A DNA stretch of 64,000 bases, taken from Daphnia pulex. Its lineage: Eukaryota > Arthropoda > Branchiopoda > Diplostraca > Daphniidae. Each line of letters opens with the position of its first letter. Within the stretch, counting starts at the first letter, position 1. Shown here in pieces: positions 41,359 through 52,889 of the stretch. The stretch lies in NCBI RefSeq assembly GCF_021134715.1, contig NC_060024.1, positions 7,502,001-7,566,000 on the forward strand, given 5' to 3'. Under the pieces are notes generated by a model. The model saw only the letters and a list, made by a program, of their open reading frames with translations, ran no database searches and had not been told where the DNA came from. The translations under genes were made by a program, and so were the position numbers.

Positions 41359-41639
41359 AGATTATTTTTGAAAAATCCAACACGTTGATATGTATGTGAT
41401 ATTTGTATCTCCCCTTCCCCTTTAAAATGTTTGTGCGAATGTACCGTTGGTATATTTTGTCTCTGCCAGAAGGCATGCTTTTCGTCGAATCTATTTCTCT
41501 GAAACACTGTAATTTCATTGTACACGGAAATATTATAAATTACAATTGTTTAAACAATTACATCCCTTGTTTTTTATTTAAATTATGTTAAAATTTTGAT
41601 GGATTTCCATTTGTATTGTCATTTTCATTAATACCAGAA

Positions 41640-42200
41640 TTTTGGAGACCAGAATTGGTAGCCAATTCTGGCCAATTGGTACCAGAATATTGGTTACCAG
41701 AATTGGTAGCCAATTCTGGCCAATTGGTACCAGAATATTGGCTACCAGAATTGGTAGCCAATTCTGGCCAATCGGTACCAGAAAAAAAACTACCAGAATT
41801 GGTAGCCAATTCTGGCCAATTGGTACCAGAATATTGTCTACCAGAATTGGTAGCCAATTCTGGCCAATTGGTACCAGAAAAAAAACTACCAGAATTGGTA
41901 GCCAATTCTGGCCAATTGGTACCAGAATATGGGCTACCAGAATTGGTAGCCAATTCTGGCCAATTGGTACCAGAATATTGGCTACCAGAATTGGTAGCCA
42001 ATTCTGGCCAATTGGTACCAGAAAAAAAACTACCGGAATTGGTAGCCAATTCTGGCCAATTGGTACCAGAATATTATCTACCAGAATTGGTAGCCAATTC
42101 TGGCCAATTGGTACCAGAAAAAAAAAACTACCAGAATTGGTAGCCAATTCTGGTCAATTGGTACCAGAGTATTGGCTACCAGAATTGGTAGCCAATTTTG
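41640..42200 (+). repeat. 48-bp tandem array, about twelve units
   Basis: AGAATTGGTAGCC starts at 41651, 41699, 41747 and 41795 and so on, an exact 48-bp period. The unit core CCAGAATTGGTAGCCAATTC is a near-palindrome, and a variable 7-base spacer alternates between ATATTGG-like and AAAAAAA forms. Because 48 is a multiple of three, at least two frames on each strand stay open (for example LPELVANSGQLVPE, and WLPILVANILVPIGQN on the other strand). These are repeat artefacts. Confidence 0.95.
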
Positions 42201-42345
42201 GTAGGCAATTGGCTACCAGAATGTAGCTAATCATGGCCCTCTACGAAGTAGCCAATCCTGGAATTCTGGTATTTTATCGGGTAATCAACTGAAACCCTTT
42301 GTTTATTAGCTGGAATCCTCACTTCAACCACTCGCAAATCCACCG
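42201..42345. other. Repeat edge
   Basis: Ends with CATGGCCCTCTACGAAGTAG and CCAATCCTGGAATTCTGG, which match the inverted unit upstream of the RRM-like gene. It probably closes the repeat-flanked cassette at about 42260. Confidence 0.5.
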
Positions 42346-44107: not shown

Positions 44108-44567
44108 TTGTTAGAGTCCACGGCTGATATCCGTCGTCTTGAAGAGTCCACGGTTGATATCCGTCGTCTTGAAGAGTCACTTTGATGGCTCCTTCCAGAA
44201 TTCTCGAAGGCTCCGCTTCTGGTATGGGTAGATCAACAGAGTGCCTTTGTTACTCTGTTGACGGAGAATTTTGCCGGAAAGAGTCACTTCGACAGCTCTT
44301 TCTCAAAATTCTCGTTGGCTCAGCTACTATGGCCGTGATGATCAACAGAGTGCCTTTGTTACTCTGTTGACGGAGAATTCGTTTGAAAGAGTCCCTTCGA
44401 CAACTCTTTCTCGTAATTCTCGTTTGCCTCTCGAACTATGGCCGTGTTGATCAACAGAGTGCCTTTGTTACTCTGTTGACGGAGAATTTTGCTGGAAAGA
44501 GTCACTTCGACAGCTCTTTCTCAAAATTCTCGTTTGCCTCTGGTCTGCGGACGGGTCTGCGGACGTG
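44108..44567 (-). repeat. Leader tandem repeats, 30-bp and 109-bp
   Basis: GATCAACAGAGTGCC starts at 44231, 44340 and 44449, an exact 109-bp period with three units. AGAGTCCACGG starts at 44113 and 44143, a 30-bp period. Both lie between LTR and gag. They may be packaging or dimerisation duplications, or simple slippage. Confidence 0.9.
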
Positions 44568-45807: not shown

Positions 45808-46380
45808 AAAAGGATAACATTAACAATTGAAAAGTTTTCCAATTAAATTGAAACATCCAAAAAGTGGATCTAACAAGTGAAATGAAGCGACTGCTGAGAC
45901 GAATATGAAACAAATTGTTGGGAAACTTGAAAGTTGAGACATTATGGATTCATTTCTTTCTCCTAATAAAAGTCATATTAAGGCAACGACTTTAGGAATG
46001 AATACAGAAACAATCGATAGCAGCATGACGCCAGAGTTATATAGAATCTCTGGTTTCATCACGACGTATGCTAATATGGCAATACTTTAGTGCCATTTTT
46101 TAGACATCATAAATTAAACAATTTTTTAAACATATTTTGTAAAGTAAAAACTAAAAGTAAAATTTTTTTAAAAATTTTTGTTAAATTTGTAAATGTAATT
46201 TTAAAAGAAAAAACTAAATGTAAAATCAAAAGTCTATTTTTAAAAGTTAGTTTAAAAAGCAAAAACTAAATATTAAAGTAAAAATGAAATGTAAAAACCA
46301 TTGGCTATTGTTAAAAGATAAATGTTAAACTAAAAACTAAACTTAAAAACTATCGAGTCCGCGAGCTATTCCGCCCCTCC
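45808..46380. other. AT-rich spacer with AAAACTAAATGTAAAA-like repeats
   Basis: At about 46130-46345, AAAACTAAA and TAAAA motifs recur irregularly (AAAACTAAAAGTAAAAT, AAAACTAAATGTAAAAT, AAAACTAAATATTAAAG). No gene. The sharp composition change at about 46360 marks the start of the next gene's GC-balanced upstream region. Confidence 0.6.
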
Positions 46381-46662: not shown

Positions 46663-48460
46663 ATGTCTCGAGACATCATTTTTGAGGACTGTCTAACATG
46701 TGGATGTTCAGTAGAATTGTCCCTATTGGAAAACCATGTGTCCAATTGGTAATTTACATCATAATAATATATTGAATAAATTCACATCCTAAACTCATTT
46801 TCCCACTAGCATAATTCTAAACGAGCGGTCTGTTTCTGAAGTCCAAAGGAGAAAGAAATTAGATGTGGACGTAGACAAAGTGAAACAATATCTAGGCAAG
46901 AATATCATTTAGTTACGTCTCTATAAACTGGAGAATCTTTCAGGCTAATGCTTTTCAAATTTTTTTGCTACAGATGAGAGAATTCCTACTAAGGAAATTT
47001 GTTGTTTGCTTGGAATCTCAAGAAGGACTCTATTTCGAGTCTTAAAAGAAATCAACATTACAGCTAGACAAAAATACACTAAAATTGGAACGAAGAACTT
47101 GGAATCATATCTTACTAACACAATCTTCAAAATAAACCCCAAATTTGGTAATTATTGAGATGAATAGTGTATTACATTACATCACAGTCTATACATAGAT
47201 AATTTTTTTCAATAAGGCTATCAAATGTTCAAGGGAGCTACGATCGCAAACAATGTCCTTTTATCAAATAAACGACTTAAAAAGGCCTACCGTTTAATAA
47301 GACAACGACAAAATGCCCCTTTAATGCAACGCATTCATCGGAGAGTGTACAAGGTTCGTGCTCCGCTTTCGCTATGGCACATTGATGGACACCACAAATT
47401 AGACCGGTAAATTTTTTGTGATTACCAATTTTTTTCAACTGACTTATTATAGTCCGCCCAAAAAACGAACATATTACTGTTTGCTAACAAAAAATTTTTT
47501 CTACAGATACTAATTCATCATCCAAGGAGCCATCGACGGATTTTCCCGTTTTATCGTATACATATCATTGGAAAATAATAACTGTTCCGAAACAGTTATT
47601 GGATTATTTGAAAAGGGAGATGAGGAATGGGGCTATCCAGCTAGTGTCAGGTAACACAGTTTACCAATGAAGTTAGTTCACCAATTGATGCTTTAATTTC
47701 GAATTCATAAGTTTTATTTGGGAGGGACAACGTACTAGTAGCGGATTTCATGATAAACGCTAGAGGAGTGGATAAAAACGCGTTTAGAACTGGAAAGTCT
47801 GTACACAATCAGAGAGTAGAGAGGCTCTGGAAAGACGTTATAGAGCGCTGTACTATAACTTTCATGGATATTTTGGGGTATTGAGAGTGTACCTTTCTTC
47901 TTATTCTTCTTGTTTCATATTCATTTCTATTTTTACGCTATTTACAGAGAAATGGAAATCGAAGGTGTACTAGACGTCGATTCCAACCTAGATCTTTTCT
48001 GTCTGCATATAGTGGCCACGAACCTCAATCAACGGTCCTTACAGACCTTTAAAGACTCATGTAACTGCCATCCACTTCGAACAGAAAATCATCGCTCACC
48101 AATGCAACTTTTTTACGATGGTTTGCAGCATTTAAAAACCCAGCAAGATAACGGAGCCATATAGAAGGCGAAGTTACTGAGCTGATACAGGTAATATTTC
48201 AATAATTCGTAATTCGATTTATAGTAAGTCTAATAATGTATCCCCGTTTGCAGGGACAGAAATTAAAACCGATTTCGAAGTGGTCTGGTTACAAGGATAC
48301 CTTCTATCGTTGTGTAATTGATCAATTTGGAGTGAACATTTCCGAAGAGGAACTACTCTGCATTATTGATCTTATTAATCCAGCCACCATTGAAATTTGG
48401 AATGTAAAAAAGAAATTCATTCAGCTTAAACAATTTGTTCTCCAAAATTTTGATGATTAA
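46663..48460 (+). pseudogene. Integrase-core (DDE) protein with N-terminal UBZ4-like finger
   Basis: Retroviral-integrase-like transposase or derivative. Exons at about 46663-46748, 46810 to about 46900, 46974-47147, 47217-47406, 47508-47650, 47717-47877, 47948-48190 and 48254-48460. Exons 1 and 2 join in phase to give CLTCGCSVELSLLENHVSNC, a C-x2-C-x11-H-x3-C finger. Exon 3 is helix-turn-helix-like (PTKEICCLLGISRRTLFRVL). Exon 4 ends with PLSLWHIDGHHKLDR, the first catalytic Asp. Exon 6 has SVHNQRVERLWKDVIERC, the catalytic Glu region; the middle Asp segment is damaged. Breaks include TAA at 47512-47514 and a frame slip at about 48160 before the last exon (SKWSGYKDTFYRCVIDQFGV). AATAAA lies at 48483. 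The HECT gene lies 0.9 kb downstream on the same strand. Confidence 0.78.
46902..46989 (+). repeat. 88-bp inverted repeat, left arm
   Basis: ATATCATTTAGTTACGTCTC to GAGAGAATTCCTAC recurs as reverse complement at 52788-52875 with about three mismatches. The left arm covers the end of intron 2 and the first 16 bases of exon 3 of the integrase gene. Confidence 0.9.
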
Positions 48461-49061
48461 AAGTAAGTCAACCGAAGACTGAAATAAATGTTGTAATGTA
48501 CGGCTTGCCGTCACAGATTGCAGCTATTACGGTCTTAGTTACTTTATTTTATTTATAGTTTAATAATAATGGATCCAAGACATTTGATATTCTGATCTCG
48601 GAAACAAAATAAAAAAGCGCAATTTCAGTACAGTCGTGTTGATCACTCAAATAATTATATTTCTCAAATAGTTGCTGGGGAATGGCTGTTGTGTTGGAGC
48701 ATGCTCGAAAGATCTATTTTGTATTGTCAAATAATATATAGAGTTAGGGTCAAATAGCCAGTTCTTTGCTGTCATTCGACAATTTCTTACAGTGACTTTA
48801 ATACAGGCTATACATCCTGATCGAGGAACGAATTCTCTGATCGATCCCGAATCGGTCGCTCGTTTCTGTAACGCAAGGAGCTAGCCATATTAAAACATTT
48901 TAGACTACATAGAAATTGAAAAAAACAGTGATGTTACTTCACTTTTGCGTCATCTTTAAGTTGCGTGTCAAATTAATAGGAGACCATTCCCATAAATAGT
49001 GAGAAACCCATGCACCCAATCTATTGGTCCAACCCAATATGGCTCTTAATGTAACGTTAAC
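48461..49061. other. Spacer between integrase and HECT genes
   Basis: No gene. It contains the integrase polyadenylation signal (AATAAA at 48483-48488) and CTATACATCC-type sequence but no coding frame. Confidence 0.5.
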
Positions 49062-49209
49062 TTTTTTCCTAACCACTTGTTTCCCATAGTAAGGATGCTG
49101 TGTGAAACGACGAAATTTGCTTCGAGAAGAATTTTGGGGGTGGGAAATCAGTCTGCAAATTTGACCATCACAGCATCCTTACCATGGGAAACAAGAGGTT
49201 GAGAAAAAA
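49062..49209. repeat. Hairpin element with 41-bp arms
   Basis: Left arm 49062-49102 (TTTTTTCCTAACCACTTGTT to AAGGATGCTGTG) pairs with right arm 49169-49209 (CACAGCATCCTTACCATGGG to GAGAAAAAA) with four mismatches. The 66-bp loop is not repeated elsewhere in the window. It lies 150 bp before the HECT start codon, so it may be a small MITE or a regulatory cruciform. Confidence 0.9.
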
Positions 49210-49360
49210 GGTTTGCGTAGAGGCGGGGCTTCAAGCTTAATCTCTTGCAGTCTTGCTATTTTCTTTCCAAATAATACATCAGTTGAGCTTCAATCGTGAA
49301 CCGAGTTAGACGCATTGTTTTTACAGAGTTCGTTTATTATTCGTTCAGTTTGTATTAAAT

Positions 49361-51625
49361 ATGAATCGAAAGAAACTAGAAAAATTGTTTAAGGATTTTA
49401 AAGCTTCCTTAGAAGCAGCAACAGCAAGTGACGACGAGGACACAGTAGATAGTAAGCATTTCATTTCCGTAATCTTTCATTGAGCCTACATTTAAGATAA
49501 CATTTCTAAAATAATTCAACGTAGAACCGAAACACAAGTAAATTTAATGTATGTGCTAATCAATGCATTTTAAAATGTTGCCATAGATCCAAAGCCGTCT
49601 TCATCTTTCTCTTATTTCCGTCCGTCGGCGAAAAAAAATCCACTTAAGAGGCTCCAAACCAAGAAACGAGAAGGTGATTTGGAGAAGAAAAAAAAGAAGA
49701 ACAGAAAGAACGTGAAGACGATTTAGAGAAAAAGAAAAAAGAAGAGCGGAAAAAGTTATTCGGAAAAGCAATCAAAGGTTCTATAAAGTTCAACTTTTTA
49801 TTTGTGGTTTTTAGCAGTGTTCCTTTAGTCACATCATTTAATTTTGCTTAGTTCCAAATTCATTTGAGAAAGATTTGCATTGTCTGGGCAAAAAGTGTCT
49901 GAGCGATCCAGTTAGTAAACCGGCTATTACTAAACACCTTGAAAAAGCGGGACTATGGGGTCGTACTACTACGTTTTTAGAAAATGATGACAAGCTATCG
50001 GTGAAAAACAAAATTGAACAGTAATTATTATTATTTTTTGTTAATTTTTCAATTAGCTAAATCGACATTCTAATAACTATTTGAAGGACATTCCCGGAGT
50101 TGAAAGGCGGATTTAAAATGTTGAAATGCAACAAAAACGGAAAAAGCTTATTCCCTATAGGAGATGGGCCTCTTGTTGATGGAATAACGCTTAAAGCCGT
50201 AACTACTAGAAAGATTTATCTGTGTCCAATTCAGAAGGACATAGATGTGGACGAAGCAAGCTCTTCTGGATCGTCTGGTGAAGAAGATGAGTGCAATGAG
50301 GAATGTTTAGTATGTGGAGAGTTAGTTCCGCTAACGTTGTTGACAAGTCATGCTAAAAATGCACGGTGAAACAAGTTGAGGATGATTGGGACAACTTCAG
50401 TACTTATGATAACGATATGAATAATTGGGAACCTCAAGCTTTTTTACCTGCGGAAGGTTATATTTTTTTTATTTCACATTTTTTTCTTTTTCTAAACAAT
50501 TTCTGTTACCTGTTAATTGTTTAGCTTTGATAAAATTTGAAGAACATCGTGAACGCATAATGGAGTATTCCGATCAAGAGGCCTACTTAAATCTTGAAGA
50601 AAAATCCAATCGGATTAGTATTACTCGAGGTGCGTATGTAACTGATTTGATGACGGCTTCAAAGAATCCTGTTTTCATGTAAGTGCTATCGTGCTTCCGC
50701 ATTATGCTATCGCTTAAATTTCAGCCGTTCATTTTTTTTTAGAGTGAATATAAAAAGACCTTTGGTCGTGACTTTCGTTGGCGAAGATGGAGCAGATGGA
50801 GGAGGCTTAAGGAGAAATTTACTGTCGATGGTGATAGATCATGCAAAGGATGTTTTCTATGTTGACCCTGATCAAGTCGGAATCGACCAGGATGAACTCG
50901 ATGAGTTATATTTCGCGCTTTCAATTTTTTTGGGTACAGATATTTTCTGAATTTATTAAATTCTTATCTTAATTTCATTTTCTATTTTCAGGTATTGCTA
51001 TTATCCAAGAAAAACTATTTCCTAAGTTTGTTCTACGAACTTTCAACAATCTAAAATCGCAGTATGGTAGGAACTTCAAATATCATCCGTTGAACCGAGG
51101 ATTAGCGCTCTTCGATCTGGACAAGGTAATGATTGATTACAAATTTGTTATCTTTAATTGCTTAATTTTGATCTTCCGATAGGTGTTTGAAGATAAGAAA
51201 TTTTCTGCCTTATTTGCTGACTTTCCAATTACGGTTCAAAACATTTTGGAATCATTGAACTACGACTTCAAGGATGCAAAACTTACTCCAGAACTGAAAA
51301 TGTGCCATAAGATCTCCTTTACTTTCTTTAATCAATTCTTTAACAACGTCGAGAAGGGCAAAGTTAGTTTACCTACGAGTAAAATGACTTTAACTGACGT
51401 TTTTTTATTTTATACTGGGTTAAAAACGATCCCACTTGCTTTTGAAGGTGAAGGTACGATCTCAATTATAAACTTAACGATTCTAAAAACCGATTCAGTC
51501 CGATCGCATATACATGTACGGCATGTGCTTAACTCACTCTCCCCATTGTCGAGAAATACGAAGACATGGAGGAAGGGTGGGTTGACGCCGTTCTAAACAA
51601 TGAGAATGGCTTTGGATTGCTTTAA
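49361..51625 (+). pseudogene. HECT-domain E3 ubiquitin ligase with UBZ4-like finger, broken
   Basis: Ubiquitin ligase of the HECT class, which carries ubiquitin on a C-terminal Cys. Exons at about 49361-49451, 49587-49786, 49852-50020, 50087-50455, 50525-50679, 50742-50933, 50992-51125 and 51182-51625. Early exons are acidic, then charged coiled coil. Exon 4 has CLVCGELVPLTLLTSHAK and, across a one-base slip in an A run (50355-50359), the last Cys of a C-x2-C-x11-H-x3-C finger. The HECT N-lobe shows PLVVTFVGEDGADGGGLRRN and the linker LSIFLGIAIIQEKLF. C-lobe pieces include LFYTGLKTIPLAFEG then, in another frame, FSPIAYTCTACA with TAA at 51530 and VEKYEDMEEGWVDAVLNN. Three breaks (A runs at 49688 and 50355, shift near 51450) plus that stop. 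Resembles G2E3-like multicopy HECT genes. Confidence 0.75.
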
Positions 51626-52014
51626 GCTAAAATGAAGAAATTGGATCGGGATTTTGTCGTAAAGAAACGTATGCTTCGTTCTCTCTTAAAATGTCTGGGC
51701 GGATGAAAGAAAATTGGGTACACGTAGGCTACTAATCATTCTTTTGAACGGATTTGATAAACATTGTTTTTGTTTTGTTCCACTATTATGCCCTTTTCAG
51801 CACGTTGCGTATCTTTCCTGAGAAATTAAGATCTGATGCGTAATTTCAATTTTTTCCCCCATGTCATTTCAGATATTCATAATCAAAAATACATAACTGT
51901 ATTTTTTTTAAACAAGAAATAAAGGAAGCAAATCAGAGCATTCCTTTGTATTCGGTTGTCTTTCATTAATAGATACATTGTTTTATACCACTTTAACTTA
52001 AATCCATGTTCAAT
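51626..52014. other. No gene recognised
   Basis: AT-rich 3' flank of the HECT gene. Confidence 0.4.
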
Positions 52015-52760
52015 TCGCTGGATACTCCTGCAGCATTTCCGTGATGTCTGGAGCATGTCTGGAGAAAAGAATCTGAAAAATAATTGGTGTTAGCACATTC
52101 ATTTCTAAGACGAAAAAATTGAAACAGTAGTTATTTTATTACCTGAATATCGGGTGATGAACGAATATGCAGAACGAACTCGTTAAGTTGTGGGTTGTTA
52201 TCCGAATCAGGAAGAAAACGGATATAGATTGATTCAGAAAGTTGAGAAAGTAATAGACGTACTTCTTCATTTGGTGGGCCGAAAGAATCGCTGATTGCTT
52301 GTCCTAACCCTGGAACCTGGTTAAGATCAATTCATTTGCCGATCTCTCCAATACAAAGGAGCGCAAAAATGTGTTGCCAATCAGAATGAGGTCTCTGAGC
52401 CTCCTGGAGGAAATTCTGCACCAATGTAAAAGCTTCAGAAACTTGTTGAGTTACAACCAATGAAGCAACAGCCTGAGCGACAGAATGATGAGCAGTATTA
52501 TAAAGACCAGGTTTCGACGCCAAATTCATCATAAACATCAACAGATCGCGGTAGCCAAGACAAGATCCTGGGTGGTAAATATTTGTTGCCATCAAAGGAT
52601 TTCAGTTTAAACTAATGAAAAAAGCATCACTAACCAGGTGCATTAAACTCGACCAATGCCTGTAGAAAATCGAGAAGGGAGCCCAAAGCCACACCTTGAA
52701 ACAGAGGTTAACGCAAGAGATTGAAAACTTTAGACAAAATGCCTCAAAATTTCCGTAAAT
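52015..52760 (-). pseudogene. CAND1 (cullin-associated) HEAT-repeat fragment, broken
   Basis: CAND1 exchanges cullin adaptors by wrapping the cullin with HEAT repeats. The minus strand at about 52760-52640 reads ALGSLLDFLQALVEFNAPG, and after an in-phase intron 52581-52150 reads LGYRDLLMFMMNLASKPG, then HSVAQAVASLVVTQQVSE and FALLCIGEIGK-stop-IDLN. After this SDSFGPPNEEVRLLLSQL follows, and the last piece at about 52069-52015 reads ILFSRHAPDITEMLQEYPAN. This fits the middle of CAND1, where GEVGHHIDL and the SxSEEVKxAAS motif occur. A TGA replaces a codon in GEIGK-x-IDL, the first piece has a stop and a slip upstream, and the fragment covers about 200 of roughly 1,230 residues. It lies opposite in strand to the HECT gene. 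Confidence 0.72.
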
Positions 52761-52787
52761 GGCTCCGTGGATGATGAATGAGTAGCT

Positions 52788-52875
52788 GTAGGAATTCTCT
52801 CATCTGTAGCAAAAAAAATTGAAAAGCATTAGCCTGAAGGATTCTCCAGTTTATAGAGACGTAACTAAATGATAT
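52788..52875 (-). repeat. 88-bp inverted repeat, right arm
   Basis: Reverse complement of 46902-46989. Its inner end abuts the CAND1 fragment, whose coding sequence starts without a junction signal right after GAATTCCTAC. Its outer end lies 14 bases from repeat copy 2. Confidence 0.9.
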
Positions 52876-52889
52876 GTTTGTTATGTTTC

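Follow-up and report, generated by a model that had tools for sequence, protein, structure and literature searches.

The window analysed here is a stretch of 64,000 nucleotides of the Daphnia pulex genome (assembly GCF_021134715.1, contig NC_060024.1), referred to below as C8:7502001-7566000, with the other contigs of the assembly abbreviated in the same manner. It carries two decayed genes in tandem, one for an integrase (transposase) and one for a ubiquitin ligase of the HECT type, which almost certainly form a single two-gene mobile element. The genome that was searched for their relatives comprises 133.19 Mb in 13 contigs and contains at least 90 integrase matches, in at least 47 loci, and at least 42 matches to the HECT gene of the element, in at least 12 loci; the "12 HECT loci" counted below are those listed among the matches, and one of them, C7:1942225, is known from its match only, its flanks being outside the sequence read. 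The two genes of the window and the presumed active site of the ligase lie as follows.

46663..48460, forward strand: rva_4 DD34E integrase (transposase) pseudogene of about 8 exons (PF24764; 57% identical to D. magna protein P0001)
49361..51625, forward strand: HECT ligase pseudogene of about 9 exons (identified with a four-copy profile)
51515..51517, forward strand: codon of the Cys presumed to be catalytic in the HECT ligase (TC motif, which C7 and C5 have as well)

When the short exons of the first gene are joined, with X placed at the breaks, the spliced reading matches PF24764 (rva_4) with E=2.1e-56, and ahead of the rva_4 core there is a match to HTH_7 (E 0.00023) that remains below the Pfam cut-off. 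The closest relatives of this integrase are Daphnia proteins, including a 420-aa protein of D. magna, P0001, with which it shares 57% identity over 98% of the length and in which the catalytic residues are spaced D-56-D-34-E. The element integrase has the catalytic core, a helix-turn-helix-like stretch and the DDE residues in common with rva_4 animal integrases. A sequence-only reading of the window had credited both genes with only scattered damage; such damage is indeed present, but the integrase has in addition a stop in exon 5, one frame slip and a lost second catalytic Asp, a residue that the C10 copy has kept.

By the profile evidence the second gene is a HECT ligase gene, albeit one far from the known ones. 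A search of the PDB (E up to 10) with a profile of four copies returned 21 matches, all of them HECT ligases, with E6AP (0.0011) and pub2 (0.0026) at the top and the alignment at the start of the N-lobe. With the window sequence alone the same database gave six E6AP and three myoglobin rows (best 0.046), and with a four-row alignment that included the N-terminal region it gave eight HECT rows plus XAF1 (best 0.018); a comparison by hhalign of the element profile with one host HECT fragment, which does not include the N-lobe start, scored no better than shuffles. Near the C end, outside the region matched by the profile, a TC motif can be read by eye in the window, C7 and C5 copies. The N-lobe start, by profile, and this presumed catalytic motif are what the protein has in common with the HECT E3 ligases (E6AP, pub2, HUWE1 and the NEDD4 group), from which it differs in having no Pfam match, in its own N-terminal region with a zinc finger, and in being borne by a transposon. 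That only the N-lobe start aligns with known HECTs and that Pfam is blind to the protein could mean that it is no longer a ligase and has kept a diverged fold for binding only; we consider this unlikely, given that TC is retained in the window, C7 and C5, with TR in its place in one decayed copy (C9:5930396). The C5 copy (C5:1410832-1412510, reverse strand; L045) has stop-free matched exon stretches 3-9 and a complete finger, with no integrase in the stretch read, and is possibly a recent or retained gene. At C12:3530146 the HECT gene is possibly a different one.

The physical association of the two genes, which the sequence-only reading had put at 0.9 kb on one strand, amounts to 913 bp in the window and recurs elsewhere in the genome. 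An integrase gene lies upstream of the HECT gene on the same strand at four of the 12 HECT loci, and at three of these the spacing falls between 886 and 954 bp (886 in C9, 913 in the window and 954 at C7:6556296). The fourth, in C10, has a spacing of 5830 bp that includes an insertion, C10:4826627-4831737, which is bounded by 319-bp direct repeats (97.5% alike) and separates the two genes. Within 10 kb of one of the 47 integrase loci there are six of the 12 HECT loci, as against a maximum of three in 20000 random placements, and an accidental pairing was rejected on this ground. Opposite-strand pairs occur at C7:1942225, where the integrase match is weak (31%), and at C9:5930396, where integrase exon 1 is inverted downstream, and at a seventh HECT locus, C12:3906730, inverted integrase exons 1-3 are followed by the terminal motif described below. 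The association extends to HECT copies that are only about 45% identical in protein and nonetheless keep an integrase at the same spacing.

The following features flank the pair in the window:

46075..46100, forward strand: 5' terminal repeat, TATGGCAATACTTTAGTGCCATTTTT, where identity with C7:1559757 starts and beyond which the flanks differ
51961..52745, reverse strand: CAND1-like fragment that separates the HECT gene from the inverted 3' part, 97% identical to C7:1560891-1561556 and like C5:5209307-5211376
52752..52880, reverse strand: inverted integrase pieces (46897-46989 and 47498-47540), which are what is left of a long inverted 3' end whose terminus is missing

The 5' end placed at 46075 begins with TA. 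The terminal motif, TATGGCAANNNTTTAGTGCCATTTTT, has 23 matches in the genome when 26 positions are compared and up to 3 mismatches are allowed (0 for the reversed control), and a 20-base version with up to 2 mismatches has 4 (2 for its reversed control); in the stretches at two of those 4 (L037, L038) neither gene was matched below E 0.1. At C12:3080528 the motif lies about 5.2 kb upstream of the HECT gene. In the C9 copy, terminal motifs at 4839722 and 4851002 are oriented towards one another, giving TA..TA ends that are flanked on both sides by an exact 6-bp duplication, CAAAAA; the inverted repeats of this copy are long, with identities of 95.8% over 792 columns and 93% over 369. The DNA enclosed by these ends has, all on one strand, fragments of each of the eight integrase exons and the HECT gene up to its finger, after which a Copia-like insertion interrupts the HECT gene at about 4841000-4844290. 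At their 3' ends, C9 and C12 (L046) repeat the 5' end in inverted orientation, with the 5' exons of the integrase included. The window copy has lost its 3' end, and no terminal motif was found downstream of 52752-52880 at up to 3 mismatches. A 2.9-kb element at C8:4319940-4322836 (L052) has related TA..TA ends, long inverted repeats and ATTTGG on both sides, together with no match to the integrase or the HECT gene, and is a probable non-autonomous relative; a 6-bp duplication is accordingly seen in both of the elements in which both ends were read. The proposal that the two genes form one composite mobile element is supported by the linked copies, the inverted repeats and the 6-bp target duplication. 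Of the two outcomes that the sequence-only reading had named as counting against it, a pair linked nowhere else in the genome and fingers that fail to reappear in intact copies, neither occurred.

The nearest known kind of element appears to be the IS3EU/GingerRoot DNA transposons, which have TA..TA termini, 6-bp target duplications and an IS3-like DDE transposase without an HHCC domain (Kojima and Bao 2023, PMC10045372). The termini, the length of the duplication and a transposase of this kind are shared by the Daphnia element, a putative member on these features, and HECT has 0 occurrences in that paper as indexed.

Several observations weigh against the two genes being a constant unit or against the identity given to the second. 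No credible integrase exon is present in the stretches read of five HECT loci (C12:3080528, C5:1410832, C9:5984892, C8:2221621 and C12:3530146), which hold between them a single antisense integrase match of 32% (E 0.006), and for some 40 integrase loci no HECT gene was detected in the vicinity. Only the C9 copy has both ends and both genes, and there the HECT gene is cut past the finger region by the Copia insertion; the terminal repeats of the same copy also contain a degenerate second exon 1, because of which the copy may be nested. For the HECT gene, no match to Pfam HECT (PF00632) was obtained with the element proteins, a genome scan with PF00632 gave 59 matches that include 0 of the 12 element loci, and no homologue was found at E<=0.001 in a set of 5.8 billion proteins, either with the whole query or with residues 218-562. 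Many of these are more distant rva_4 integrases among the at least 47 loci, e.g., C10:3292946-3294044 (L036), where no HECT exon was found in the 6.5 kb read.

Substitutions between older copies bear on whether the ligase was of any use to the element. Differences at first, second and third codon positions in the HECT gene number 163/135/253 between the window and C7 (397 codons), 33/26/67 between the window and C9 (126 codons) and 44/31/81 between C5 and C9:5930396 (262 codons), and in the integrase gene 104/44/170 between the window and C9 (331 codons). This excess at third positions, which is judged from position counts only, fits purifying selection having kept both genes, and we read the ligase as having been under selection while the element was active. 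The young pair formed by the window and C10 is nearly flat, with 25/18/27 over 454 codons for the HECT gene and 17/15/20 over 274 for the integrase, which is the pattern that decay after insertion would give; simple dN/dS values for that pair, 0.99 for the integrase (with one exon in the wrong frame) and 0.76 for the HECT gene, were not relied on.

The lineage has apparently caught other DNA as well. CAND1-like DNA lies beside the HECT 3' end in at least two copies (window 51961-52745 on the reverse strand, C7:1561025-1562482 and C3:6928166-6928573): the junction between the HECT 3' flank and the CAND1-like DNA recurs at C3:6928018-6928573, and that between the CAND1-like DNA and the integrase pieces at C7:1560976-1561025. 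The continuation of C7:1560891-1561556 matches CAND1 in the PDB (3e-56). Further CAND1-like loci are found on C5, at 5209307-5211376 and 5324170-5324700, one or both of which, as read from their frames, are presumably the host gene. This capture, and the HECT gene at C5:1410832-1412510 that stands without an integrase in the stretch read, would suit an account in which the HECT gene is likewise a passenger, taken up by the element from the host or from a foreign source and playing no part in transposition. That account is improbable, in view of the constraint indicated by the third-position excess and of the spacing to the integrase that HECT copies about 45% identical in protein have preserved; the HECT ligase is very likely a maintained part of the element.

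Each of the two proteins contains a zinc finger with the ligand pattern C-x2-C-x11-H-x3-C, encoded in the window as follows.

46690..46748, forward strand: integrase finger, its last Cys split by intron 1, with the third base at 46810
50304..50362, forward strand: HECT finger, its last Cys (50360) out of frame by a slip in the window copy

Exon 1 of the integrase encodes CLTCGCSVELSLLENHVSN at the start of the protein, and splicing across intron 1 completes the fourth ligand Cys. The pattern had been noticed in the damaged window genes, and it is found complete and in frame in better-preserved relatives of both: in the D. carinata integrase model P0002, CLTCGCTVEISLLEVHTATC, in the C10 HECT copy, CLVCGMLVPLTFLTSHAQTC, and in the more distant HECT copies of C7, CVICEEVMPMDVLEKHARKC, and C5, CAKCGEFMAIEVIEGHARKC. 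In the D. magna model P0001, Trp occupies the last ligand position. A HECT finger arising as a chance match across the slip was rejected on account of the three complete copies, and in 20000 shuffles the pattern appeared once for the integrase, 0 times for the C10 HECT protein and 3 times for that of C7. Against the finger as a regular part of the ligase it must be said that these three are the only complete in-frame HECT fingers among the 12 loci, that four copies (C9, C9:5930396, C9:5984892 and C8:2221621) have a broken one, and that the sequence read at C12:3906730, C12:3080528 and C12:3530146 shows none.

The sequence-only reading had held that the finger is shared between the two proteins. 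This stands for the spacing of the ligands, and similarity beyond them is modest: the window pair scores 20 outside the ligands (permutation p 0.0012), and all 12 integrase-HECT finger pairs give p 0.0005-0.06, values that are uncorrected and come from pairs that are not independent. Among rva_4 animal integrases the C-x2-C-x11-H part of the finger occurs in 2 of 111 homologues, both from Daphnia (P0002 and P0001), and its absence from the remaining 109 suggests that it was probably gained in the HECT-carrying lineage. These two observations speak for a common origin of the fingers over the alternative that they are unrelated, have their spacing in common by chance, and each serve their own protein, for example in DNA-end binding or dimerisation of the transposase and in substrate binding by the ligase. 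That alternative nevertheless comes only somewhat short of an even chance, as the HECT fingers are no farther from XAF1 (p 0.0005-0.006) than from the integrase finger, the C7 HECT finger scoring 13-15 against XAF1, RAP80 and WRNIP1 and 1-13 against the integrase finger. XAF1_C, the sole Pfam family to match any of the fingers, also does so for two HECT fingers (C7 0.00086 and C10 0.0078, both below the cut-off) and for neither of the two integrase fingers tested. On these sequence comparisons a common origin is plausible, the chances being about equal either way.

The fingers had further been called UBZ4-like; as UBZ4 domains they would recognise ubiquitin and so direct both enzymes to chromatin that is ubiquitylated where DNA is damaged or replicating. 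Their ligand spacing equals that of the UBZ4-type fingers of XAF1, RAP80 and WRNIP1, and the C7 HECT finger retrieves XAF1 (0.17), RAP80 (0.57) and WRNIP1 (0.97) from the PDB, none of them significantly. For the three integrase fingers, however, the scores are 3-10 with XAF1 and -7 to -16 with RAP80 and WRNIP1. Ubiquitin binding by WRNIP1 is disrupted, according to PMC7351111, when N33 or D37 is mutated. The corresponding positions, two residues before and after the His, were placed by the author on an alignment of the C7 finger with WRNIP1, and in the eight element fingers compared they are occupied by E, K or T and by S, A, T, K, Q or R, respectively, so that none of the eight has Asn or Asp at these contacts. 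In this the element fingers differ from the UBZ4 type; the assignment to UBZ4 proper and the suggested part in DNA-damage ubiquitin signals are both left unsupported, and ubiquitin-based recruitment is quite unlikely. As to the beta-beta-alpha fold of a UBZ4 finger, the AlphaFold2 model of P0002 has pLDDT <50 for residues 1-41 and does not resolve the finger.

A docking mechanism, which is likelier than recruitment by ubiquitin, can be offered tentatively. The ligase would act in an accessory role, attaching ubiquitin to some protein present at the transposition complex, whether the transposase itself or a host factor that binds to the complex; the like fingers would be docking modules of one kind, through which both enzymes reach the same partner; and ubiquitylation would then limit or release the complex. 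Both the finger contacts and the substrate are putative, our best guess for the latter being a protein of the transposition complex. The pair in the window is itself probably what remains of a cut-and-paste DNA transposon with two genes. The more specific notion of a transposon-encoded HECT ligase that is coupled to its transposase through a shared finger, such that ubiquitylation is built into the transposition cycle, is speculative and rather doubtful; ubiquitylation might there release the complex, control the dose of transposase or remove a host silencer.

Accessory genes are known in DNA transposons, and with one that encodes a HECT ligase and was retained by selection, a connection of ubiquitin with transposition would become open to direct testing, with two like-fingered proteins of one element as a concrete case for how an accessory enzyme can be tied to a transposase. 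Full-text searches of the literature, which did not extend to most subscription papers or to Repbase reports, turned up no DNA transposon with a HECT ligase among its genes, nothing relevant being present in the passages considered of PMC4255032, PMC5560861 and PMC6027436, and the pairing of a transposase with a HECT ligase in a DNA transposon looks new. Fishes have many HECT-like genes, which may belong to similar elements, in which case the novelty would be lower. Upstream of the element, the window also contains imperfect tandem repeat arrays at 41632-42222 and 44172-44541.

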